Of a stretch of 64,000 nucleotides of DNA, positions 49,071 to 61,052 are shown one piece after another; positions within the stretch are counted from its first letter, which is position 1, and each line of letters opens with the position of its first letter. The stretch is from Thermodesulfobacteriota bacterium (GTDB taxonomy: Bacteria > Desulfobacterota_D > UBA1144 > Nemesobacterales > UBA2774). The translations under genes and the position numbers were made by a program. The notes under the pieces were generated by a model. It was not told the origin of the DNA. It ran no database searches and saw only the letters and a program-made list of their open reading frames with translations. Where the stretch lies: assembly GCA_021604765.1 (NCBI GenBank), contig BQJP01000004.1:62001-126000 (forward strand). The letters are read 5' to 3'.

Positions 49071-49171
49071 AACAGATACATACACAAATAGATATATTCA
49101 TATAATTTATTTTTTATCCTTCATATTAATTCTATTATGTGCTATTTTACTTAATTAATGGAGGTGGAGAA

Positions 49172-50110
49172 ATGCATAGAATATTGTTATTTGTTTCAAT
49201 AGTCCTGATAGCCATAATTCTTAACACAGAAACATCTAAATCAGATGTTTTAATTGAGAACGGTGGTATTAATTCTTTTATAGCCGCTTTTATTCCTGGC
49301 GTTATGGAACTTGATGTTGCTACCGGTTCTGGCCAGGCAGGTGATTACATAGTACTAACCTGCGGAGCCTTTAGTAATAGCTCAGCTAACTCGTTTAATG
49401 CTCCGGGGCCTGCTATATTTACAGAGCTAGACACTGAAAACTGCGGGAATAACAATAATTGTATAGAAGGGATATGGGGTGGTTTTACTAATAACGCTGC
49501 TTCAGAAGATCTTACCTGTAATACAACTGGCACGTCTATAATATTCACTGCGGCCACTCTTCGTTATTCAAACGTAAATACGATGAACCCGGTAATTGGT
49601 ATTATGTGCAGTGAGGGTAATGGACTGCTTGCAACAGCTCCTTCTATAATGACAGAAGCCGGCTCTCAAGTGGTCAGGATTTTTACGTCCTTCGCATTTG
49701 CTGAAGAAGAAGTAAACAATGTTATGGTAACCCCACAAACGGCAAGCTTTAGCTCACAAGCAAGTCTAGAAGGAAGCCAGGTTACTTCGGTAGGATCAAG
49801 CGCTTTTTTTAATTCAGCAGGCGCTACGGGAACAGCTGATCAGTCATATACTGGGTCACCGAGAGACTGGAGAGCTTGCACATTAGCGCTTAGAATGGAA
49901 CCGCCTCCGCCAACTCCGACCCCAGTTCCTCCTACACCGACACCTACTACGACAATAGTTCCACCGACAGGAACACCTACTCCGACAATTATTCCTCCCC
50001 CAGATGTTACTAGCGTTCCAACCCTTGGTGAATGGGGACATTTGAGTATCGCTATATTAGCAGCATTGCTTGGTGTTTGGTTTTTAAGAAGACATAGAGT
50101 TAAAACCTAA
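49172..50110 (+). CDS. IPTL-CTERM secreted protein, second family, copy A
   Basis: 312 residues from the ATG at 49172, which follows GGAGGTGGAG; the frame opens 11 codons earlier. Signal peptide, TGSGQAGDYIVLTCG, CIEGIWGGFTNNAASEDLTC, TEAGSQVVRIF and WRACTLALRME define the family. A Pro/Thr-rich linker of ~40 residues (unique to this copy) precedes the sorting signal SVPTLGEWG, helix, RRHRVKT. The mature domain is probably a beta-sandwich; function unknown. Confidence 0.88.
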   Translation: MHRILLFVSIVLIAIILNTETSKSDVLIENGGINSFIAAFIPGVMELDVATGSGQAGDYIVLTCGAFSNSSANSFNAPGPAIFTELDTENCGNNNNCIEGIWGGFTNNAASEDLTCNTTGTSIIFTAATLRYSNVNTMNPVIGIMCSEGNGLLATAPSIMTEAGSQVVRIFTSFAFAEEEVNNVMVTPQTASFSSQASLEGSQVTSVGSSAFFNSAGATGTADQSYTGSPRDWRACTLALRMEPPPPTPTPVPPTPTPTTTIVPPTGTPTPTIIPPPDVTSVPTLGEWGHLSIAILAALLGVWFLRRHRVKT

Positions 50111-50121
50111 ATAGATATTAA

Positions 50122-50151
50122 ATCCGGCGTTTCTTAACAGAGGCGCCGGAT
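50122..50151 (+). terminator. Hairpin after copy A, repeated after copy B
   Basis: ATCCGGCG / CGCCGGAT form a perfect 8-bp stem around a 14-nt loop, 11 nt after the stop. The 30-bp sequence is identical to 51164-51193. No T-run follows, so it may be a processing or stabilising hairpin. Confidence 0.65.
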
Positions 50152-50294
50152 GACTCTGCCAAGCTAGTTCTCATTTACCTTAATTCAAATAACAAAATTG
50201 CTATTTTACATTTCGATTTTTTATAACTATAAAAAGTTGTTCATTTTGATTTATTTATATGTTACGATTGTAAAAAATCCCATGGAGGAATAAG

Positions 50295-51140
50295 ATGGCG
50301 AAAAAACTTTTATTCTTACCCATTATTGTTTTATTTTTACTCATTATTTCTTTTGAAACCCAGGCAGATGTGCTAGTAGATGATGCGGATTCAACAAATG
50401 TATTAGGTCAAGGTTTTACTCTTGAGACTGTACCTACTGGTTCGGGACAAGAGGGAGACTATGTGATCTTTGCATGCGGTGTGACCACAGATAATGGAAA
50501 CTCTTTTGATGCACCTTTCCCGGGCACTTGGACAGAGTTCGATGACGGGATCTGTGATAGTCCCGATGGAAACTGCTTTCAGGGCATTTGGGGCAGTTTT
50601 GTAGATAACCCTGCATCTGCAGACATCACATGTGAATGGAATATCCCTACAAGCGTGTTTGTAGGAGGGTCCTTTAGATACAACCAAGTAGATCCTGATG
50701 ATCCAATTATCGATTCTGCTTGTGACAGTGGTGCGGATTTTGGCCCTAACATAATGGCAACAGCTCCATCAATTGTAACAGAAGCAGGATCTCAGGTTGT
50801 CAGAATATATACCTATAGAAACTTCGATTCCGCAGGAAGTGGAAACACAAATGCAAATAACGACACAAGCGGTTCTTTTTCTGCTGATTCAACTCAAGAT
50901 ACTTTCTCAAATGTGCATATGAGAGGCACAACCGATCTTGTGCCCGTAGATGGACCAACGGGGACTGCATCAGTTGACGCTGGTTTTGATGCGGAATGGA
51001 GAGCATGCACTATTGCCCTTAGGATGGTGCCTGATCCAAGAATGGTACCTACTATGAGTGAGTGGGGAATGCTGGCTTTCGCAACGTTTGCAGGTATTGC
51101 CGGATTCTGGTTTATCAGAAGACGTCAGCTTGCAGCTTAA
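50295..51140 (+). CDS. IPTL-CTERM secreted protein, second family, copy B
   Basis: 281 residues. Signal peptide (LLIISFETQA), DVLVDDADS, TGSGQEGDYVIFACG, CFQGIWGSFVDNPASADITC, APSIVTEAGSQVVRIYTY and WRACTIALRM. The sorting signal is MVPTMSEWG, helix, RRRQLAA, identical in its tail to copy C. GGAGGAATAAG precedes the start. Lacks the Pro/Thr linker of copy A. Confidence 0.9.
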   Translation: MAKKLLFLPIIVLFLLIISFETQADVLVDDADSTNVLGQGFTLETVPTGSGQEGDYVIFACGVTTDNGNSFDAPFPGTWTEFDDGICDSPDGNCFQGIWGSFVDNPASADITCEWNIPTSVFVGGSFRYNQVDPDDPIIDSACDSGADFGPNIMATAPSIVTEAGSQVVRIYTYRNFDSAGSGNTNANNDTSGSFSADSTQDTFSNVHMRGTTDLVPVDGPTGTASVDAGFDAEWRACTIALRMVPDPRMVPTMSEWGMLAFATFAGIAGFWFIRRRQLAA

Positions 51141-51163
51141 AATTTAATACAACTTCAAACAAA

Positions 51164-51193
51164 ATCCGGCGTTTCTTAACAGAGGCGCCGGAT
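51164..51193 (+). terminator. Hairpin after copy B
   Basis: Identical 30-bp element to 50122-50151, 24 nt past the stop of copy B. Confidence 0.65.
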
Positions 51194-51321
51194 TACCAAC
51201 TAATTATTTCAAACCAACAACAATGACAGCTAATCCTGATAGTACAATATAGGCTAAAATGCTATCTTTTCATAACCATATATGGTAAAATCGCATTAAT
51301 TTCCATATATAGGAGGATAAA

Positions 51322-52161
51322 ATGGTAAAAAGACTTCTAATATTACCTGTATTAGTTTTATCATTACTCATTATCTCCTTTGAAGCTAATGCAGATGTGA
51401 TTGTGGATGACGCTGATTCAGACACTGAAGTGGATATGAACAGCTCTTTTAACTCTGCAGATGTACCTACAGGTTCGGGGCAAATAGGTGACTACGTTTT
51501 AATAGTATGTTCAATATCCCCGTTTTTCCAGGACCCTCCAGTTTTTTCTGCTCCCACGCCGGGAACCTGGACACAACTTGATACAGGCCAATGCGGAAGC
51601 GGTAATGATTGCTCGCATGGAATCTGGGGCAGATTTACCGATAATCCAGCATCAGAAGATATAACTTGTAGCTGGGACGACCCTGGTTTTGTTTTTGCCG
51701 CTGGGTCTTTCAGATACAATAACGTTGATGTAAATGATCCAATTGTTGATGTGGGATGCAATTCTGGCACAGGTAATGATGCAATCGCTCCTTCAATAGA
51801 AACTGTTGCAGGCTCTCAGGTAGTCAGAGTATTCACCTACACAAATTTGGATTTCCCATTAACTAGTGATACTAATTCGAATACTGATACAGAAGGACAG
51901 TTTTCTTCTTTTGCATCTACTACTTTTCAAACAGTTAGTCTAAGAGCTACAACAGACCTCTTTATATCAGACGGCCCAACTGGAACTGCGAATAACTTCT
52001 CGGGTACTGAGCCCAGCTGGAGAGCCTGTACAATAGCTCTAAGGATGGCTCCTGTTCAGAGAAATGTTCCTACAATGAGTGAATGGGGACTTATCTCTTT
52101 CGCAGCTTTTGCTGGTATTACAGGACTTTGGTTTATCAGAAGACGCCAGCTTGCAGCTTAA
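51322..52161 (+). CDS. IPTL-CTERM secreted protein, second family, copy C
   Basis: 279 residues. Signal peptide (LLIISFEANA), DVIVDDADS, TGSGQIGDYVLIVCS, CSHGIWGRFTDNPASEDITC, APSIETVAGSQVVRVFTY and WRACTIALRM. The sorting signal NVPTMSEWG, helix, RRRQLAA closely matches copy B. AGGAGGATAAA precedes the start. B and C look like the most recent duplication of the three. Confidence 0.9.
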   Translation: MVKRLLILPVLVLSLLIISFEANADVIVDDADSDTEVDMNSSFNSADVPTGSGQIGDYVLIVCSISPFFQDPPVFSAPTPGTWTQLDTGQCGSGNDCSHGIWGRFTDNPASEDITCSWDDPGFVFAAGSFRYNNVDVNDPIVDVGCNSGTGNDAIAPSIETVAGSQVVRVFTYTNLDFPLTSDTNSNTDTEGQFSSFASTTFQTVSLRATTDLFISDGPTGTANNFSGTEPSWRACTIALRMAPVQRNVPTMSEWGLISFAAFAGITGLWFIRRRQLAA

Positions 52162-52247: not shown

Positions 52248-53216
52248 CTACTTTTTTGATCTAAGAGATTCTAGTGAGGTTCGGATTTCATAGAGACTGT
52301 CGACTCTTAAAGCGTCTATTTCATCAAGAACTGCTTTGTAACTAGTGCTAGCCCTGCCTCCAACTATAATAGTTACATTATCGGGAAGAGTCCGCCTTAG
52401 CTTTCTAATTTCTTGAACCAATACCGGATCATCCTCAGGATAAACTATGCTTAGTATTACAGCTTTGCAGTTATTCTGTTTCACAGCGCCAGCGATTTCC
52501 TGAGAAGGGAGATTCGCTCCTAAATATGTAACATTCCATCCTTCACTAGCAGCGGTTACTGCAATCATGAGAGCGCCTATGTCGTGCCATTGATCAGCAG
52601 GTGTAGTTACTAGAACATTCGGGGCGGAGGGAGAAGTTTTATGACTTGCTAATATACCCCCAAGAAAAGTTCTAATCACATGGGAAGCCAGATGCTCATG
52701 AGAAATTCTGAGATTTCCCTTTCGCCACCCCTCTCCGACCTCTTCCATAATAGGAACCAGTACATTTTCGATGACGCCATTGAGACCATAATCTGTTTCG
52801 GCCTGGATCAGTATATTCTCGAGTGCTTTGGAATTCATCTGCTCAAGAGCATTCATAAAACTCTCTACATAGTTTTCAAAGCTATTTTCATTAGCTACGG
52901 TTCTAGTTTTCTGATCAAGATCTTGTTTTATCGGAAGATCTATAACATTCATGGTATCTAGTAAGTTTTTGAGTTCTTCTTCACTAGAGTTTACTACCTG
53001 ACTAATGCCAAACCCAGCATCAGTGACCCTTTTAAGTAAGAGAAGTCTATCTATATCCTCTTCGGTGTAATATCTTCTATTATTAGAATCTCTCTTGGGT
53101 GATACTGCGTTGTAACGCCTTTCCCAGGCTCTTATTGCATGAGCGCTAAGGCCTGTTCTCATGGAAACAACTTTCATTGAATATTTTTTATCCATATTAA
53201 GCTCTGTGTTATTCAT
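52248..53216 (-). CDS. CarH/LitR-type MerR regulator with B12-binding light-sensor domain
   Basis: 322 residues. A MerR-type winged helix (about 12-80, MRTGLSAHAIRAWERRY) is followed by a four-helix B12-cap domain with the W-x9-EH motif (Trp164, Glu174, His175) and a Rossmann cobalamin domain with the D-x-x-HDIG lower-ligand motif (His211). CarH proteins bind adenosylcobalamin, repress DNA as tetramers in the dark and release it when light breaks the Co-C bond. The residue after Trp164 is Arg; Thermus CarH has His (His132) there. The gene is divergent from the fasciclin/sigma/photolyase operon, and its own promoter carries three operator-like repeats. Confidence 0.92.
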   Translation of the reverse strand: MNNTELNMDKKYSMKVVSMRTGLSAHAIRAWERRYNAVSPKRDSNNRRYYTEEDIDRLLLLKRVTDAGFGISQVVNSSEEELKNLLDTMNVIDLPIKQDLDQKTRTVANENSFENYVESFMNALEQMNSKALENILIQAETDYGLNGVIENVLVPIMEEVGEGWRKGNLRISHEHLASHVIRTFLGGILASHKTSPSAPNVLVTTPADQWHDIGALMIAVTAASEGWNVTYLGANLPSQEIAGAVKQNNCKAVILSIVYPEDDPVLVQEIRKLRRTLPDNVTIIVGGRASTSYKAVLDEIDALRVDSLYEIRTSLESLRSKK

Positions 53217-53219
53217 AGC

Positions 53220-53252
53220 TTTATGTTAAACAATTGTCTAACTGTTGTCAAC
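53220..53252 (-). promoter_or_regulatory. CarH-type operator: three 11-bp direct repeats over the regulator's promoter
   Basis: On the minus strand three abutting 11-mers read GTTGACAACAG, TTAGACAATTG and TTTAACATAAA. All fit nTnnACAn, the repeat form recalled for Thermus CarH. They cover the -35 TTGACA (53251-53246), the 17-bp spacer and the -10 TAACAT (53228-53223) of the regulator gene. The predicted start of transcription is at about the ATG at 53216, so this mRNA may be leaderless. Confidence 0.75.
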
Positions 53253-53374
53253 CCTTCGGTTTCATCGCTTAAAATTACTAAAAGTTGTATATCGAAGAAA
53301 ATATAATCATAAAACATTACATAACTGTTATTAAATAGCAGAATCTGATTATTTTATAAAGACGAAAAATAATG

Positions 53375-53427
53375 CTTGACATATGCTATACAGTTGTTTA
53401 TCTTATTAGACAACCAATAGACATATG
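53375..53427 (+). promoter_or_regulatory. CarH-type operator and promoter of the light operon
   Basis: Two abutting 11-mers CTTGACATATG and CTATACAGTTG (53375-53396) and, 9 bp further, TTAGACAACCA and ATAGACATATG (53406-53427) all fit nTnnACAn. The -35 TTGACA (53376-53381) lies in the first repeat; 17 bp later is TATCTT (53399-53404). Binding would block RNA polymerase. The leader to the fasciclin gene is about 110 nt. Confidence 0.75.
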
Positions 53428-53524
53428 CTAGATGACCTAGCGTGAAGGGAAGAAAAGTTTTTGTGATGGGGTTATCGGAAATGTCGGTTGGTGGACCAAA
53501 CAAAACACTTTAGGAGGTGTTAAC

Positions 53525-54025
53525 ATGAGTAGATTTAAATCTTTGATGTTAGTAGCAGTGGCTTTAATGGTATTCGGGTCTGTGCAGGCTTTCTCAGGCA
53601 GTGATAAAAACAAAGACATAGTAGACACTGCAGTTGGTGCAGGTTCATTTAATACCTTAGTAGCAGCAGTCCAGGCAGCGGGGCTTGAAGAGACTCTAAG
53701 AGGAGAAGGACCATTCACAGTCTTTGCTCCCACCGATGAAGCATTTGCAGCTCTTCCTGATGGCACAGTAGAAATGTTACTACTACCGGAAAACAAAGAA
53801 AAGCTAGTAGCAATTCTTACATACCACGTAGTTCCAGGAAAAGTGACATCAGCAGATGTTGTGAAAGTAAAAGAAGCCAAGTCTGTAAACGGCAAAGGAA
53901 TACCAATTGCAGTTAAGGACGGAAAAGTACATGTAGACAACGCTACTGTCGTAACGCCCGATGTAATGGCCAGTAACGGTGTGATTCATGTAATAGATGC
54001 CGTTATCATCCCTGATGACAATTAG
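53525..54025 (+). CDS. Secreted fasciclin (FAS1) domain protein
   Basis: 166 residues. A signal peptide ([16 protein letters not shown]) and one FAS1 domain: [43 protein letters not shown] and [16 protein letters not shown]1 proteins act in adhesion or bind small ligands. It is the first gene of the light-controlled operon and has an excellent AGGAGG ribosome binding site, so it should be the most abundant product. An extracellular FAS1 protein at the head of a photoprotection operon is unexpected. Confidence 0.92.
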
Positions 54026-54034
54026 TTTTTACTA

Positions 54035-54063
54035 TGCCCGGGTCGCATAACTCGGCCCGGGCA
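54035..54063 (+). terminator. GC-rich hairpin between fasciclin and sigma genes
   Basis: TGCCCGGG / CCCGGGCA, 8-bp stem and 13-nt loop, 9 nt after the fasciclin stop. No T-run follows, so read-through is likely. It may stabilise the upstream message or attenuate expression of the sigma factor. Confidence 0.6.
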
Positions 54064-54090: not shown

Positions 54091-55251
54091 ATGGATTATA
54101 CAAATACAAACTATGACAACAATTTTGAAGATAGCACTAATATACATTCTGACAACAATGCGCTTTTTGAAACATTTGAAACAGAAGAATATAACAATAT
54201 TGAACTAGATATTGATACAGAAACTTATGAAGAACAGCCGGAGCACTCACAAGATGATACTAATAAAGTAGAAGTAAAAGATTCGCCTTCAGAAAACAAC
54301 AATTACAAATGGACGAAGTTTGAGGAAGAAAGAGTACTATATGTTTATTTTAAGGACTTATTGCATGAACCGCTTCTAACAGGCGATCAAGAAAAAGAGA
54401 TCGCGGCACAGATGAAGGAATGTAACAATCGAGTAAGCAAAATTGAGAAAGAGCTTAACAAAGCTAAAGATATGGATGTTAAGCAAAGAAATAAGCTATT
54501 AGCTTATAAAAACAGATATTCTAAAAAAGCCAAGGAGCTTAAATCTAGGTTTATCAAAGCTAACCTAAGGCTGGTTATCAATATCGCCAAGAGACATCTT
54601 GGAAAAGGGCTCGCATTAACAGATTTAGTACAGGAAGGAAACCTCGGATTAATTAGAGCAGTAGAGAAGTTTGATCATACAAAAGGTTTTAAATTCTCTA
54701 CGTACGGCGCATGGTGGATACATCAGGCAGTGACAAGAGCGCTAGCTGAAAAAACCAGGACTATTAAAGTTCCGGTTTACGTGCTTGAGCAGTCTAGTAA
54801 AGTATTTAAGGCAAAATACATGCTTCAGGAAGAGTTAGACAGAAAACCGCTGCCCAAAGAGATAGCTGAGAGAACAAAGCTTAGCCTTGATATTGTAGAG
54901 GCGGTACTAGACGGCTCAGACAAAGCGCTGTCACTCGATAACCCAATAAAGGACGATTTGTCGAGAACATATATGGATTTTCTTCCTGATCATAATCCCT
55001 TAGAACAGGAATACAGTGTAGACAATAAAAACATGAAGGGACTGTTGAGTGAGCTTTTAAATACTCTATCAGAAAAGGAAGAGGAAATTGTTAGAATGCG
55101 CTATGGATTTGGAAATAGCACCGTGCACACACTTGATGAGATCGGAAACAAGTTTGGTGTTACTAGAGAGCGTATTAGGCAAATTGAGAAATCGGCACTT
55201 AAAAAAATAGCAATGTCTGAAAAAAGCGATAAGCTAAAAGGATATCTATAA
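54091..55251 (+). CDS. RpoD-like group 2 sigma factor
   Basis: About 386 residues from the ATG at 54091, with AAGGGAG at optimal distance; an ATG at 54085 and an upstream open frame exist. The first ~70 residues are very acidic and Asn-rich with no region 1.1. Regions 2 ([40 protein letters not shown]), 3 and 4 ([20 protein letters not shown]) are complete. As a group 2 factor it should read -10/-35 promoters similar to sigma-70. Its place in the CarH-controlled operon suggests it spreads the light response to other genes. Confidence 0.92.
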
Positions 55252-55267
55252 AGATAAGGCGAAAACA

Positions 55268-56725
55268 ATGAAAGTATTGGTAACGGGAGCAACTGGATAT
55301 ATAGGAGGGAGGTTAATAACTGACCTTCTGGACAAAGGTGTCAATGTTAGAGTACTTGTCAGGGATCCTTCCAGAATTGAAGGGAGGCTGTGGAAAGATA
55401 ATGTTGAAGTATTTGTTGGTGATCTATTAAATCCCGACTCACTTAAAGCTGCGCTGAAAGATATAGATGTAGCCTACTACCTTGTTCATTCAATGTACGG
55501 CGGCAAGGACTATGCAGAAAAAGATCGACAAGCAGCTAACAACTTCGTAAATGCTGGGCAGCATCTTAAGAAAGTCATATATCTTGGTGGACTTTTGCCC
55601 AATACCGAGAAGGTATCAACACACCTAAAAAGCAGATCTGAAGTAGGTGAGATTCTAAGAAAAGGACTGCCTACACTTGAATTTCGGGCTGGTCCTATTA
55701 TAGGGTCTGGATCTGCATCATTTGAGATGGTCCGATACTTAACAGAAAGACTGCCTGTGATGGTTGCCCCCAAGTGGATCCATCATCAAGTACAGCCAAT
55801 AGCTGTCAGAGACGTTATGCGATACCTAGTCCTTGCATTAGACAAAGAGTACAAAGGCGTACTGGATATAGGAGCTGATGTTTTAACATTCAAACAAATG
55901 ATGGACGGTTATGCTAAAGTAAGGGGTTTTACTCGTACTATAATAACAGTCCCGGTTCTCGCTCCAAAGTTAGCGGCAATTTGGGTAGGGCTTGTTACTC
56001 CCATATCCAATTCCTTAGCCGTGCCTTTAATTGAGGGAGTTATACATCCAATTGTGGGACATACATCTAAGGCGCTAGAAGCTTTCCCAGAAATACGCCC
56101 CCTACCCTATGTAGATTCAGTTGAACGCGCTCTAAATCATGTTAACAAAGGAGATATAGAAACAAGGTGGAGTGGAGCACTAGGATCTGAATCCACATAC
56201 AGCGTCTCCGAGTGGCGTGGACTAGTGACAGAAAGAAGATCCATACATATTGATGATATAAAACCTGAAACAGTATTTAACTCGTTTACAAGCTTAGGCG
56301 GTGAGAAAGGCTGGCTCGTGTGGGAATGGGCTTGGGAAATAAGAGGATTAATAGACAGGCTAATGGGAGGCCCTGGGCTAAGGCGCGGAAGAAGGCACCC
56401 TGTCCAATTACTTCCAGGAGAAGCTCTTGATTTCTGGAGAGTAGAAGAAGTTGAAAGACCTGAGATTCTGAGGTTAAGAGCTGAAATGAAGGTTCCGGGA
56501 AGAGCTTGGCTAGAGTGGCAAGCTATGCCCGAGGGCAATGGAACAAGGTTAGTGCAAACTGCTCTTTTTGAACCCTCAGGTCTTTGGGGAGTACTTTACT
56601 GGCGCTGTCTTTATCCTATTCACCGATTCATATTCGATGATATGATAAGCGCTATAGCAGAAGATTCTAAAAATATGAACTCCGCCAAATCAAATCTTAA
56701 CGCTATTATTCAAGATAAAATTTAA
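55268..56725 (+). CDS. SDR-family NAD(P)-binding protein with DUF2867 domain
   Basis: 485 residues. The N-terminal Rossmann motif VTGATGYIGGRLITDLL and the extended-SDR NmrA-like body (about 1-290) are joined to a C-terminal DUF2867 domain (about 320-470, VWEWAWEIRGLIDRLMGGPGLRRGRRHP and LEWQAMPEGNGTRLVQTALFEP). This architecture often occurs beside photolyase genes in light-induced clusters. Reaction unknown. It starts 16 nt after the sigma gene. Confidence 0.88.
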   Translation: MKVLVTGATGYIGGRLITDLLDKGVNVRVLVRDPSRIEGRLWKDNVEVFVGDLLNPDSLKAALKDIDVAYYLVHSMYGGKDYAEKDRQAANNFVNAGQHLKKVIYLGGLLPNTEKVSTHLKSRSEVGEILRKGLPTLEFRAGPIIGSGSASFEMVRYLTERLPVMVAPKWIHHQVQPIAVRDVMRYLVLALDKEYKGVLDIGADVLTFKQMMDGYAKVRGFTRTIITVPVLAPKLAAIWVGLVTPISNSLAVPLIEGVIHPIVGHTSKALEAFPEIRPLPYVDSVERALNHVNKGDIETRWSGALGSESTYSVSEWRGLVTERRSIHIDDIKPETVFNSFTSLGGEKGWLVWEWAWEIRGLIDRLMGGPGLRRGRRHPVQLLPGEALDFWRVEEVERPEILRLRAEMKVPGRAWLEWQAMPEGNGTRLVQTALFEPSGLWGVLYWRCLYPIHRFIFDDMISAIAEDSKNMNSAKSNLNAIIQDKI

Positions 56726-56772: not shown

Positions 56773-56801
56773 AGCTGTTGAGAATGTTCATTGGAGGATA
56801 C

Positions 56802-57779
56802 ATGTCAAACATTTTGCAATTCAAGAAAATTAGATTTATTGCCTTATCTTTAACTATTATAATTTTAGCAGCGCTTGTGAATACAGCGCCTTCCCATGCT
56901 CAACCCGAGAGTGTTGAGAGATTGCAAAAACAAAAACTAAACTTTTTTCAGAGGTGGGCGATACGAGCCAACGGAAACGTAGAGCATGTGTTTAATACTG
57001 ATATTGATGGCGGAGGAAAATTCAACATAACCAGGCTTGGCTTTAGTCACGACGCCACTTTCACAGCCACCGATAAACTAAAAATAACATTTGGTTCTAG
57101 CTATAACTTCTATCATTTCGATTTTTCAGGATCCCAGGGTTTTGCAGGTCTAAGACCATGGAGAAATGTCAGTATCTCCAATAACAGTATGAGAGTAACC
57201 TATGCGGTTACACAAAAATGGGGAGTATTTGCTATGCCGGTTATTTCTTACGGCGCAGAATCAGGTGCTCCATTCTTTGATTCATTCACAATTGGAGGTA
57301 TGGCTGGAGTAAGTTACAGGTTTGGAGATAACCTAACTGTTGGCATAGGAGGATTTGTAGGTAGCAGATTAGAAGACAGCGTAATTGGATATCCAATTGG
57401 TTTTCTTGACTGGAAAATCACAGAACGCCTCAGATTATCAACGCTTGCAGCAGGAGCTAGAAACGATTTTGGTCCCAAAGCAGAATTATCTTACGACGTT
57501 GGTAGCGGTTTTAAAGTAGCGACATCAGTAGGATACGAATTTACTAGATTTAGACTTGAGAAGAAGGGTAATTTCCCAAGAGGTATTGGGGATTTCAAAG
57601 CATTACCACTCGTGGGAAGAGTGTCTTACGATGTAAATAAATATCTCACACTAAATAGCTATGGTGGTTTTCTATTTCTAGGATCATTGGAAGTAGAGGA
57701 CAGCGATGGGGATAGAATTAGGAAAGAAGACTATGACCCAGCACCATTCTTAGGTGGGAGTATAACGATAAGATTATGA
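56802..57779 (+). CDS. Predicted outer-membrane beta-barrel protein
   Basis: 325 residues from the ATG at 56802, preceded by TTGGAGGATAC; eight extra codons are open upstream. A signal peptide (ALVNTAPSHAQ) is followed by alternating amphipathic strands and a C-terminal ITIRL end, as in barrels recognised by the Bam machinery. It resembles DUF6268-type proteins, though I am not sure. Its stop overlaps the photolyase start (ATGA), so the two are translationally coupled. Confidence 0.75.
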   Translation: MSNILQFKKIRFIALSLTIIILAALVNTAPSHAQPESVERLQKQKLNFFQRWAIRANGNVEHVFNTDIDGGGKFNITRLGFSHDATFTATDKLKITFGSSYNFYHFDFSGSQGFAGLRPWRNVSISNNSMRVTYAVTQKWGVFAMPVISYGAESGAPFFDSFTIGGMAGVSYRFGDNLTVGIGGFVGSRLEDSVIGYPIGFLDWKITERLRLSTLAAGARNDFGPKAELSYDVGSGFKVATSVGYEFTRFRLEKKGNFPRGIGDFKALPLVGRVSYDVNKYLTLNSYGGFLFLGSLEVEDSDGDRIRKEDYDPAPFLGGSITIRL

Positions 57780-59158
57780 AGAAAGAAAGAACCATATTTT
57801 GGTTCAAGAGAGACTTAAGAACCGAGGACAATACTGGGCTACTTCATGCTATTAATGAAAGCCGAGAAGTTATACCTATATACATTCTCGATGATGAAAT
57901 CTTAAAGGGCTATCCAAAAGACAGTAAACGACTAGGTTTTTTCTTTGACGCTCTTAAGAAACTGGACAAGGAACTTAGAGAACTTGGTTCTTATCTATTT
58001 GTAGAGAGGGGAAAAGCTGAAGAAGTCATACCAAGAATAGTCAGAACATATAATGCGGATTCTATATACTGCAACAGAGCTTACGGTTTTTCCGGTATAA
58101 GCAGGGACTTAAAAATAGAGCACTTTTGCAAATCAAGCGAAATTACGTTTAAGAAATTCGACGACACCTTCCTTGTACCCCCAGAAAACATTGAACAGCG
58201 TAAAGTTTTCACTCCATTTTACAGACTGTGGCAGGGGAAACAAAAAGGAGAGGAACTACCGCGTCCTGATAAAATAAATTCTCCTGAAATCCTAATAAAT
58301 TCCCTCCAAAATATGATTCAAGGAATAAGCCACTCTGAAAATACTCTTTGGCCAATTAATTATCCTGATCAGAGACTTTGGAGCTTTAATTTTAAAGAAT
58401 ACAATGAACGACGAGACTTCCCATACATTGAGGGCACGTCTAGACTTTCTCCTTATTTAAGATTCGGGACAGTATCTGTAAGAAAGGTTTATAATGCAGC
58501 AATGAGCGCTACGCCTGAGCCAAGTCAATTCGTGGCAGAGCTTGCATGGAGGGAGTTCTGGTATCACATTATGCATTATTTCCCTGAGACTAAAAATGTC
58601 GAATTTCAGGAAAAGAGAAGAAATATTAAGTGGATAAATAACGAAAGCTGGTACAACTCCTGGAAAATGGGACGCACAGGGTATCCAATAGTAGATGCTG
58701 CAATGATCCAGCTTAAAGAAGAAGGCTGGATGCACGGAAGAGCGCGCATGATAGTTGCTTCATTTCTTACAAAGGACCTGTTAACCGACTGGAGATGGGG
58801 CGATAAACACTTTAGAGAACATTTGATTGATTACGATGAAACAGTAGACATTGGAAATTGGCAGTGGTCGGCTTCATGCGGGGCTGACCCTAAACCACTC
58901 AGAATCTTTAATCCAATATTGCAATCTCAGAAATTTGACCCCAAATGCACATATATTAAAACCTATATCCCAGAGCTCAAAGGCTTGGAGCCAGAGAAAA
59001 TCCATAATCCACTTACCTACAAACTACCTTATCATGAACCTATAGTTAACCACTATGAGATGAGAAACCTCGCTCATGAAGCCTATTCCGGCGGAAGAAT
59101 AGACGACGACTATATCTCTAAGATAAAGAAGGATGAAGTTTTCACCAAAGCAGAGTAG
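57776..59158 (+). CDS. phr: Deoxyribodipyrimidine photolyase (class I type)
   Basis: 460 residues. An N-terminal photolyase domain (IFWFKRDLRTEDNTGLLHA) and a C-terminal FAD-binding domain: TSRLSPYLRFGTVSVRKV, ELAWREFWYHIMHYFPE, GRTGYPIVDAAMIQLKEEGWMHGRARMIVASFLTKDLL and DIGNWQWSASCGADP, then RIFNPILQSQKFDP. It repairs cyclobutane pyrimidine dimers using blue light. It overlaps the upstream gene by 4 bp. Confidence 0.95.
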   Translation: MKKERTIFWFKRDLRTEDNTGLLHAINESREVIPIYILDDEILKGYPKDSKRLGFFFDALKKLDKELRELGSYLFVERGKAEEVIPRIVRTYNADSIYCNRAYGFSGISRDLKIEHFCKSSEITFKKFDDTFLVPPENIEQRKVFTPFYRLWQGKQKGEELPRPDKINSPEILINSLQNMIQGISHSENTLWPINYPDQRLWSFNFKEYNERRDFPYIEGTSRLSPYLRFGTVSVRKVYNAAMSATPEPSQFVAELAWREFWYHIMHYFPETKNVEFQEKRRNIKWINNESWYNSWKMGRTGYPIVDAAMIQLKEEGWMHGRARMIVASFLTKDLLTDWRWGDKHFREHLIDYDETVDIGNWQWSASCGADPKPLRIFNPILQSQKFDPKCTYIKTYIPELKGLEPEKIHNPLTYKLPYHEPIVNHYEMRNLAHEAYSGGRIDDDYISKIKKDEVFTKAE

Positions 59159-59292: not shown

Positions 59293-60078
59293 ATGGCAAT
59301 AAGCGTACTGATGGTATATCAACCGATTGGGTCCACGAGGGAAAAAGAAAGTTACTGGAGAAGCTATGTTTCTTATTATGAGGAGTATTGGGATGGACCT
59401 GCCACACCTCAGTCCTCATGGTTTGGAACAGAGTACAACGATTTTAGAAAATCACTTTCAAATCATCTGGGGCTTAACAAAGATGAGATACATGACTGTT
59501 TTTTTCAAAAAGATGATGAAGGAAACTACTTCATAGTCCCGGTAGGTGAAGAGATAAATATCAACATCTTCAGCGCAGAGAATTTTATACCCTATGAGTG
59601 GTTCCTAATGTTTTCAAAAGAAGAAAAACATTATTTCTACACACATACAGGTTTTGGCGCCATACAAACAGATGCTATCTACTACCATGCGAGGGTTGAA
59701 GACACTACAGAGAGACTAAAAAAATCAAAAGAAGGGATCGAATCAGCATTAAACAATATTGAAGCGTGCTCCTCCCAGCTTCTGGCAGAAAGCCTAAAAG
59801 AACTCCACGACAATATTGAAAACCTCCAAAACTGGCTCGCAGGATTTGATCCTAAGAGTTTTATAGTTCTAAATTATGCGGAAATCTGCTCTCATATTCA
59901 GCAGGATTCCATGAAAAATGAGGACTCCGTATCAGAAATACATAATGTCCTTTCCTTAGCTGCAGAAGGAAATTTTGACGAGGCAATGTCTGCTCTTACT
60001 TACCTTACAAGCAAATGGCAGGAGATAAGGTCGGCAATCACCGGAGAAGGCTTGGAGTCAACTAACACCGTGCAATAA
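59293..60078 (+). CDS. Hypothetical protein in the photolyase cluster
   Basis: 261 residues, soluble. The N-terminal half (ISVLMVYQPIGSTREKESYWRSYVSYYEEYW, FIPYEWFLMFSKEEKHYFYTHTGFGAIQTDAIYYHARVED) is aromatic-rich and the C-terminal half is helical (TTERLKKSKEGIESALNNIEACSSQL). No family recognised. It lies between phr and the DUF523-DUF1722 gene (8 nt before the latter), implying a shared role in light or DNA damage response. Confidence 0.75.
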   Translation: MAISVLMVYQPIGSTREKESYWRSYVSYYEEYWDGPATPQSSWFGTEYNDFRKSLSNHLGLNKDEIHDCFFQKDDEGNYFIVPVGEEININIFSAENFIPYEWFLMFSKEEKHYFYTHTGFGAIQTDAIYYHARVEDTTERLKKSKEGIESALNNIEACSSQLLAESLKELHDNIENLQNWLAGFDPKSFIVLNYAEICSHIQQDSMKNEDSVSEIHNVLSLAAEGNFDEAMSALTYLTSKWQEIRSAITGEGLESTNTVQ

Positions 60079-60086
60079 TCTGTATC

Positions 60087-61052
60087 ATGAAGAAATTCCC
60101 AAAACCTGTAGTAGTTACAAGTAAGTGCTTTGAGTTTGACGCATGCCGTTATAACGGCGTCATGATTCCGAACAATTTTGTACAAAAGCTAGAGCCATTC
60201 GTAAAATTTATCCCCGTCTGTCCAGAAGTAGAAATAGGTCTCGGAATCCCTAGAGACATTATCCGGGTAGTTGAAAAAAAAGGAAAGAAACTGCTTGTAC
60301 AACCCACAACAGGCAAAGAAGTTTCAAAGCCGATGTATAAATTTGCTAAGAGCTTCTTAAATTCATTAGATGCGGTGGATGGTTTTATACTAAAGAGCCG
60401 CTCTCCTTCCTGCGGCATAAAAGACGCCAAATATTATAGTGACAGTGAGAATCCATCCCCAATTGGTCGCGGTTCAGGTCTGTTTGCTGAAAAAGTTCTG
60501 GAGAGATATCCGGGCACAGCGATTGAAGATGAAGGAAGGCTCATGAACTTTACAATAAGGGAGCACTTTCTTACTAAACTGTATACCCTTGCCCGGTTTA
60601 GAGAAGTAAAAAAGAAAAACAAGATAAAAGCTCTTGTGGAGTTTCAATCAGACAATAAATTTATTTTTATGTCCTATAATCAAAGGGAAATGAGAATTTT
60701 GGGGAGATTGGTAGGAAATGAAAACAGAGAGTCTATCGAGAATATAATCTCACAGTATGAAACTCACCTTCATCATGCCCTTTCTAAGACCCCCAGAAGA
60801 TCTTCGCATATTAATACTCTTATGCATGGACTAGGGTATTTCTCAAAAAAACTCACATCTAAAGAGAAAGCCTATTTTCTCGACCTGCTTGAGAACTACC
60901 GTAATCACAAGATACCGCTTAGTGCAATCCTCACTGTACTGGAGTCCTGGATCATTAAGTACGAGGAAGAGTATTTAGCACGCCAGACCTTCTTTGAGCC
61001 CTACCCTAAGGAGCTCGTAGAAATTTCAGATTCCGGGAAGGGTCGAACCTAA
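60087..61052 (+). CDS. DUF523-DUF1722 (YbgA-like) fusion protein
   Basis: 321 residues. An N-terminal DUF523 domain (SKCFEFDACRYNG, FIPVCPEVEIGLGIPRD, SRSPSCGIKDAKYY) with conserved Cys residues is joined to a C-terminal DUF1722 domain (HLHHALSKTPRRSSHINTLMHGLGYFSKKL, IPLSAILTVLESW). E. coli ybgA (DUF1722) sits directly beside phr, and the same pair occurs here. The domain's exact role is not established. Confidence 0.9.
   Translation: MKKFPKPVVVTSKCFEFDACRYNGVMIPNNFVQKLEPFVKFIPVCPEVEIGLGIPRDIIRVVEKKGKKLLVQPTTGKEVSKPMYKFAKSFLNSLDAVDGFILKSRSPSCGIKDAKYYSDSENPSPIGRGSGLFAEKVLERYPGTAIEDEGRLMNFTIREHFLTKLYTLARFREVKKKNKIKALVEFQSDNKFIFMSYNQREMRILGRLVGNENRESIENIISQYETHLHHALSKTPRRSSHINTLMHGLGYFSKKLTSKEKAYFLDLLENYRNHKIPLSAILTVLESWIIKYEEEYLARQTFFEPYPKELVEISDSGKGRT

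Follow-up and report, generated by a model that had tools for sequence, protein, structure and literature searches.

A predicted CarH light switch in Candidatus Dadabacterium with an operon-side operator split around the -10 element

Introduction

CarH proteins bind 11-bp direct repeats in the dark in an AdoCbl-dependent manner, block RNA polymerase and are released by UV, blue or green light (PMC8156234, PMC9304148), and both the operator consensus nnnnTnnACAn and the dark-repressor mode were derived from experiments (PMC9304148; PMC8156234). In Thermus thermophilus CarH (5C8D/5C8E), MerR and AdoCbl-binding domains with W, EH and an axial His are combined with an operator of three tandem nnnnTnnACAn repeats that include the -35 element. 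Its residues W131, E141, H142 and H177 are reported to be key for AdoCbl, and GxxW, EH, GxxH and GxxxP make up the light-responsive signature (PMC11796333); H132 is the upper ligand in the light state (bis-His), while the R176-D201 dimer salt bridge, G160 and G192 belong to the oligomer interfaces (PMC10442372). The Bacillus megaterium operators carry four contiguous tandem repeats, or three and a pseudorepeat, overlapping promoter elements (PMC9304148). In the Myxococcales, contiguous full and degenerate 11-bp units (DRs and drs) with the -35 within a repeat control carotenoid genes, from two divergent operators in some species (PMC9304148). The class II LitR proteins of Pseudomonas (PmlR2/PplR) lack the B12 Rossmann domain, receive light via a LOV protein and act at TGTACA-N12-TGTACA sites, one on the -35 and one past the start site, in light operons with photolyase and RudS. 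The RudS family erases tRNA 4-thiouridine, and its genes are reported to accompany photolyase and LitR in light-responsive operons (PMC11417400).

Here we analysed a 64,000-nucleotide stretch of DNA (the window) from Candidatus Dadabacterium, for which CarH-type repeats had been proposed on both sides of a divergent promoter region next to a CarH-like gene (the original prediction). The nearest named relatives of the host are MAGs of Candidatus Dadabacteria, together with MAGs classified as Deltaproteobacteria or Thermodesulfobacteriales. The literature searched contained no account of a CarH switch in Dadabacteria, and none of its experimentally mapped CarH operators had a 20-bp split.

Results

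The regulator belongs to the CarH family

The gene carH (52248..53216, - strand) encodes a protein of 322 aa, in which Pfam places a MerR-type DNA-binding domain (MerR_1, 5e-17), a B12-binding four-helix bundle (B12-binding_2, 1.6e-10) and a Rossmann domain (B12-binding, 9e-15), and the recognition helix motif RxWERRY is present as RAWERRY. Its closest solved structures are those of Thermus CarH, 5c8d/3whp (1.8e-29), and the first PDB matches of its AlphaFold model (mean pLDDT 82) were 5c8d/5c8e. In Foldseek, the B12-binding domain alone gave a TM (target) of 0.83-0.88 against most Thermus CarH entries; the modest TM of the whole modelled chain is attributed to a different inter-domain angle. 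The best NCBIfam model was the CarH equivalog NF052513 (2e-39, 135.5 bits, below its cut-off of 400), a score that marks a family relative and not an equivalog of the modelled group, the cut-off being a naming threshold and not a defining one.

The four key Thermus residues W131, E141, H142 and H177 correspond to W164, E174, H175 and H211, and the light-responsive signature reads GEGW, EH, DQWH and GANLP, three of its four parts being full and the fourth partial, with the axial His kept and Gly replaced by Asp. Thermus H132, R176, D201 and G160 are replaced by R165, W210, N235 and T194, and G192 is kept as G226. The Thermus-type interface residues vary in many CarH homologues and do not define the family, and since H132, R176, D201 and G160 are not conserved, details of the oligomer and of the photochemistry may differ and cannot be carried over from Thermus. 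Cobalamin adenosyltransferase (PF01923, 2.6e-58) is encoded in the same genome (G000), so AdoCbl should be available. Judged by its sequence, the regulator is a new member of the known CarH / class I LitR family, and its original assignment as CarH-type is borne out by the domains, the closest solved structures and the signature residues. Identity as a class II LitR was rejected, given the Rossmann B12 domain and 11-bp TnnACA sites in place of TGTACA-N12-TGTACA.

Seven repeats are arranged around two divergent promoters

Direct reading and a TnnACA scan on both strands of the region between carH and the operon (53217-53524) recovered all seven 11-mers of the original prediction, three on the - strand and four on the + strand. 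On the carH side, three abutting units with TnnACA spacings of 11 and 11 cover the promoter from -35 to -10, just as had been proposed. DR1 (TTGACA, 53251-53246, - strand) is the -35 element itself and is present in all 11 readable relatives; DR2 (TAGACA, 53240-53235, - strand), 11 bp past DR1, reads TAGACG in G009, TATACA in G021 and TAGACA in the other relatives; and DR3 (TTAACA, 53229-53224, - strand), exact in the window's genus and in G009 and degenerate in others (ATAACA, ATAATT, TAAATT), overlaps the -10 element (TAACAT, 53228-53223, - strand), which follows a 17-bp spacer. The carH start codon is found 6 nt past this -10 (TAACAT-AAAGCT-ATG, 53214-53228, - strand; 6-7 nt in most relatives), and because of this short distance the carH mRNA is probably leaderless.

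On the operon side, two 11-bp pairs including the -35 had been described, which holds for the first pair, consisting of DR1 (TTGACA, 53376-53381, + strand), which is the -35 element and identical in 10/10 genomes, and DR2 (TATACA, 53387-53392, + strand), which lies inside the promoter spacer and reads TATACA or TAGACA in 10/10 genomes. The second pair, however, is located past the -10, over the predicted transcription start site (~53411) and the first transcribed bases, with DR3 (TAGACA, 53407-53412, + strand) 20 bp past DR2 and DR4 (TAGACA, 53418-53423, + strand) 11 bp past DR3; the latter showed one deviation, TAGACG in G011. What the original prediction had missed is the 20-bp split, in which the -10 element (TATCTT, 53399-53404, + strand) sits after a 17-bp spacer, TANNNT being found at the exact offset in 10/10 genomes. 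The operon-side spacing is thus 11-20-11, the pairs being 20 bp apart, neither 11 nor 22. The unit offsets are 11, 31 and 42 bp, the last equal to 4.0 turns at 10.5 bp, and all four units would be near one helix face. A degenerate fifth repeat (TAGATG, 53429-53434, + strand) lies in phase 11 bp past DR4; its TnGAT is kept in five aligned genomes of the window's genus and G009, and is readable in G010 too.

The fuller consensus nAnnTnnACAn has an A as its second base, which only one of the seven units, the carH-side DR2, shares. MerR promoters usually have spacers of 19-20 bp, and with the 17-bp spacer of both promoters here there is no need for activation of the MerR type through untwisting of DNA. 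A search of the leader of the first operon gene against Rfam gave no RNA-element match at E up to 1.

The arrangement exceeds chance expectation

As a null model, 40,000 order-1 (first-order Markov) simulations of the same 308 bp were used. A tandem triple appeared in 0.02% of them; the 11-20-11 pattern, and likewise a set of at least four 11-bp pairs, occurred in none of the 40,000. Across the 3.42-Mb genome, the 11-20-11 pattern has a single occurrence, at the carH locus, and the tandem triple has two, here and beside a tRNA-like stretch (C75); the latter was rejected as a CarH target, as it adjoins that stretch and is not promoter-like. A wider CarH regulon was likewise rejected, other TTGACAn5TAnACA pairs numbering ~1-2 per genome, about the rate of the reversed-pattern control, and not being common between genomes. 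Single pairs of this kind were seen upstream of a 79-aa membrane-like ORF (L157:1517(-), G004), upstream of a 469-aa secreted protein (L170:1501(+), G002) and between a paralogue of the 261-aa protein described below and a MerR-like ORF (L158:1501(+), G009); lying near plausible promoters, they are possibly species-specific CarH targets or products of chance.

The repeats are conserved with an intact CarH and lost with carH

Conservation in relatives, whose absence the original prediction had named among the observations that would overturn it, was found with base-pair precision wherever a cobalamin-competent CarH and enough flanking sequence were present. The TTGACA-anchored 11-20-11 pattern was found in 9/58 genomes of the class, one copy each and always adjoining carH, and its reversed-pattern controls gave 0 matches among the same 58. 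It tracks the intact regulator, occurring in nine of the 11 genomes with a full-length CarH and intact cobalamin ligands vs 0/47 of the others (Fisher 5e-9); of the two lacking the exact pattern, G011 is one base off and the contig of G014 stops before the operon side. Across 10 genomes, the 16 defining operon-side bases hold in 159/160 cells, and modal identity in the flanking columns is 5.0-5.7 of 10. The split arrangement persists in the order-level relative G021, whose CarH has 42% identity. On the carH side, relatives generally have two exact units, the middle unit being degenerate in another genus and the third elsewhere.

Three draft genomes, from which carH is likely truly absent, show the reciprocal situation. 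In genus g3 (G008 and G012), where carH gave no match, the sigma factor and photolyase of the operon are still present, and G001, also lacking carH, still has the barrel protein, photolyase and RudS. In these three genomes no paired 11-bp repeats precede the remaining operon genes, except for one match within a coding stretch (L150). G006 is a similar case; its contig begins at the barrel gene, so the upstream region is unreadable.

The downstream pair appears peculiar to this lineage

To place the layout more widely, same-strand TnnACA pairs were collected within 450 bp upstream of carH at 80 CarH loci, a few of them Dadabacterial or close. Pair spacing peaks sharply at 11 bp, with 90 pairs vs 0 in equal coding DNA, and has smaller peaks at 22 and 31. 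Among the 24 TTGACA-anchored arrays from other phyla, 12 carry a second unit in the spacer together with a -10 at +23, and none has units at +31 and +42. These arrays indicate that the -35/DR2/-10 module is widespread and that, in this sample, the +31/+42 downstream pair appears peculiar to the present lineage. L086 (Verrucomicrobia) was rejected as a matching layout, since it shares the 11-20-11 spacing but has its -35 in the second unit. At L064 (Ignavibacteriae), a -10 separates two units from a further three, in phase at 22 bp. L086 and L064 raise the possibility that split CarH-type arrays arose on more than one occasion.

The divergent operon has the gene content of a light operon

The operon, all on the + strand, starts with a secreted fasciclin (FAS1) domain protein (53525..54025; Pfam Fasciclin, 1.4e-40) and continues with a sigma-70 family factor with regions 2, 3 and 4 (54091..55251; Pfam; NCBIfam RpoD-like, well below the RpoD cut-off), an SDR/NmrA-like protein with a C-terminal DUF2867 (55268..56725; Pfam), a predicted beta-barrel-like protein (56778..57779; a weak sub-cutoff DUF6268 match), a DNA photolyase (57776..59158; Pfam FAD_binding_7 4.8e-69 and DNA_photolyase 1.5e-39), a conserved 261-aa protein with no family match that is syntenic in relatives (59293..60078) and a RudS-type fusion of a TudS desulfidase with DUF1722 (60087..61052; Pfam), by family a tRNA 4-thiouridine eraser. 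The gene order is largely kept in relatives with carH. By its predicted products, photolyase and RudS, the operon content is of the light type, and with a sigma factor in second position the operon may relay the light signal to further promoters.

Several further features were observed in this neighbourhood. A strong GC hairpin (GCCCGGG...CCCGGGC, 54036-54062) lies between the FAS1 and sigma genes, has no T run on the + strand and may tune expression between the two. Adjoining carH, at 49139-52161, are three tandem paralogous secreted proteins with a sorting-signal-like tail (PTxxEWG...transmembrane...RRR), whose homologues also neighbour carH in most relatives. The genome G000 contains 14 matches to the sigma factor of the operon, which points to a large sigma-70 set.

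Discussion

Judged by the protein family, the cobalamin signature, the repeats with their spacing, the promoter elements, the conservation and the loss with carH, this locus of Candidatus Dadabacterium is very probably a light switch of the CarH (class I LitR) type, in which AdoCbl-CarH would repress both carH and the operon in the dark and light would release both. These features support the original prediction in substance, and from them we infer binding, repression, an oligomer, release by light and, through the sigma factor, a broader response. In the dark, AdoCbl-loaded CarH would bind the TnnACA direct repeats at both ends of the intergenic region. Autorepression would act through the three tandem repeats that cover the carH -35, spacer and -10, and repression of the operon through a split operator, with one pair on the -35 and spacer, one pair over the start site and the -10 free in the 20-bp gap. 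Units close to one helix face would enable a pair of CarH dimers, or a single tetramer, to grip the promoter on either side of the -10. Light would break the Co-C bond of AdoCbl, CarH would let go, and photolyase, the tRNA s4U eraser and the sigma factor would be made.

Three other explanations bear on this reading. The two operon-side pairs could be independent sites for separate CarH dimers with no tetramer across the -10, the -35 pair repressing initiation and the downstream pair serving as a second operator or a roadblock. This is a substantial possibility, if short of an even chance: the Thermus dimer/tetramer interface residues are not conserved here, Cystobacter CarH binds as dimers that require two tandem repeats, and Pseudomonas class II LitR uses two separate sites, on the -35 and between start site and start codon. 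The 20-bp gap, exact in 10/10 genomes down to 42% CarH identity, argues instead for geometric coupling, although the promoter itself also fixes some of the distances. We consider it improbable that the regulator is a B12-level sensor or a B12-independent (CarA-like) repressor whose physiological signal is not light. The H132 equivalent is absent, the cobalamin ligands are lost altogether in small-genome relatives, and M. xanthus CarA is an apo-repressor; against this, the window's family retains all of W, EH and the axial His, photolyase and RudS are among the genes of the operon, and the bis-His is dispensable in some light-responsive members.

It is barely credible that the words are merely ordinary sigma-70 -35 boxes and AT-rich chance repeats with no operator at all. 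DR1 on either side does double as a perfect -35 TTGACA, and TnnACA is a loose 4-base motif, but the simulations and the genome-wide uniqueness speak against such an origin, exact conservation already contradicts it, the repeats are lost with carH, and the 11-bp periodicity recurs at CarH loci of many phyla.

Compared with the known systems, the predicted light switch shares with Thermus the domains, W, EH and axial His, at ~26% identity. The original likening of the repeats to the Thermus tetramer operator stands for the three carH-side repeats, in the window's genus only, but not for the operon side, which is split 11-20-11 around the -10 and differently arranged. As in B. megaterium, four repeats overlap promoter elements, there contiguous and here as two pairs with a 20-bp gap holding the -10. 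Full and degenerate units, a -35 within a repeat and two divergent operators are shared with the Myxococcales, for which no 11-20-11 is described (PMC9304148). With Pseudomonas class II LitR the locus shares the photolyase and RudS operon content and sites on the -35 and past the start site, but its regulator has the full B12 domain and its sites are 11-bp direct repeats. The CarH family is known; what is new is the design of the putative operator, an exactly conserved 11-20-11 variant with a free -10 in its gap.

The predicted switch would drive DNA repair, a tRNA s4U eraser and a sigma factor, not carotenoid genes, and extends the view that B12 photoreceptors widely govern light-damage responses. 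The conserved 11-20-11 putative operator allows the flexibility of CarH-DNA geometry to be tested cleanly, and the region could serve optogenetics as a new compact two-way light-controlled promoter.

The lineage also provides a natural contrast between intact ligands with 11-bp repeats, lost ligands with re-spaced repeats, and lost carH with lost repeats. In class-level relatives with ~1 Mb genomes (L012-L023), 12/12 CarH homologues keep W and have EH changed to ER, and the axial His is gone (GQKA or GQRA) in all 11 with the Rossmann motif read (L016 left out). In their carH-sigma intergenic regions, TnnACA-like words are re-spaced to ~21 or 12 bp, with 11 in a few. These homologues are likely a B12-independent, CarA-like offshoot. 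The combined proposal, that a second CarH operator architecture became fixed in Dadabacteria, with repeat pairs in helical phase flanking a free -10 that a tetramer or two dimers would bridge, and that in small-genome members a light repressor became B12-independent together with its re-spaced operator, is tentative and somewhat doubtful. The small-genome members are probably a marine pelagic clade.
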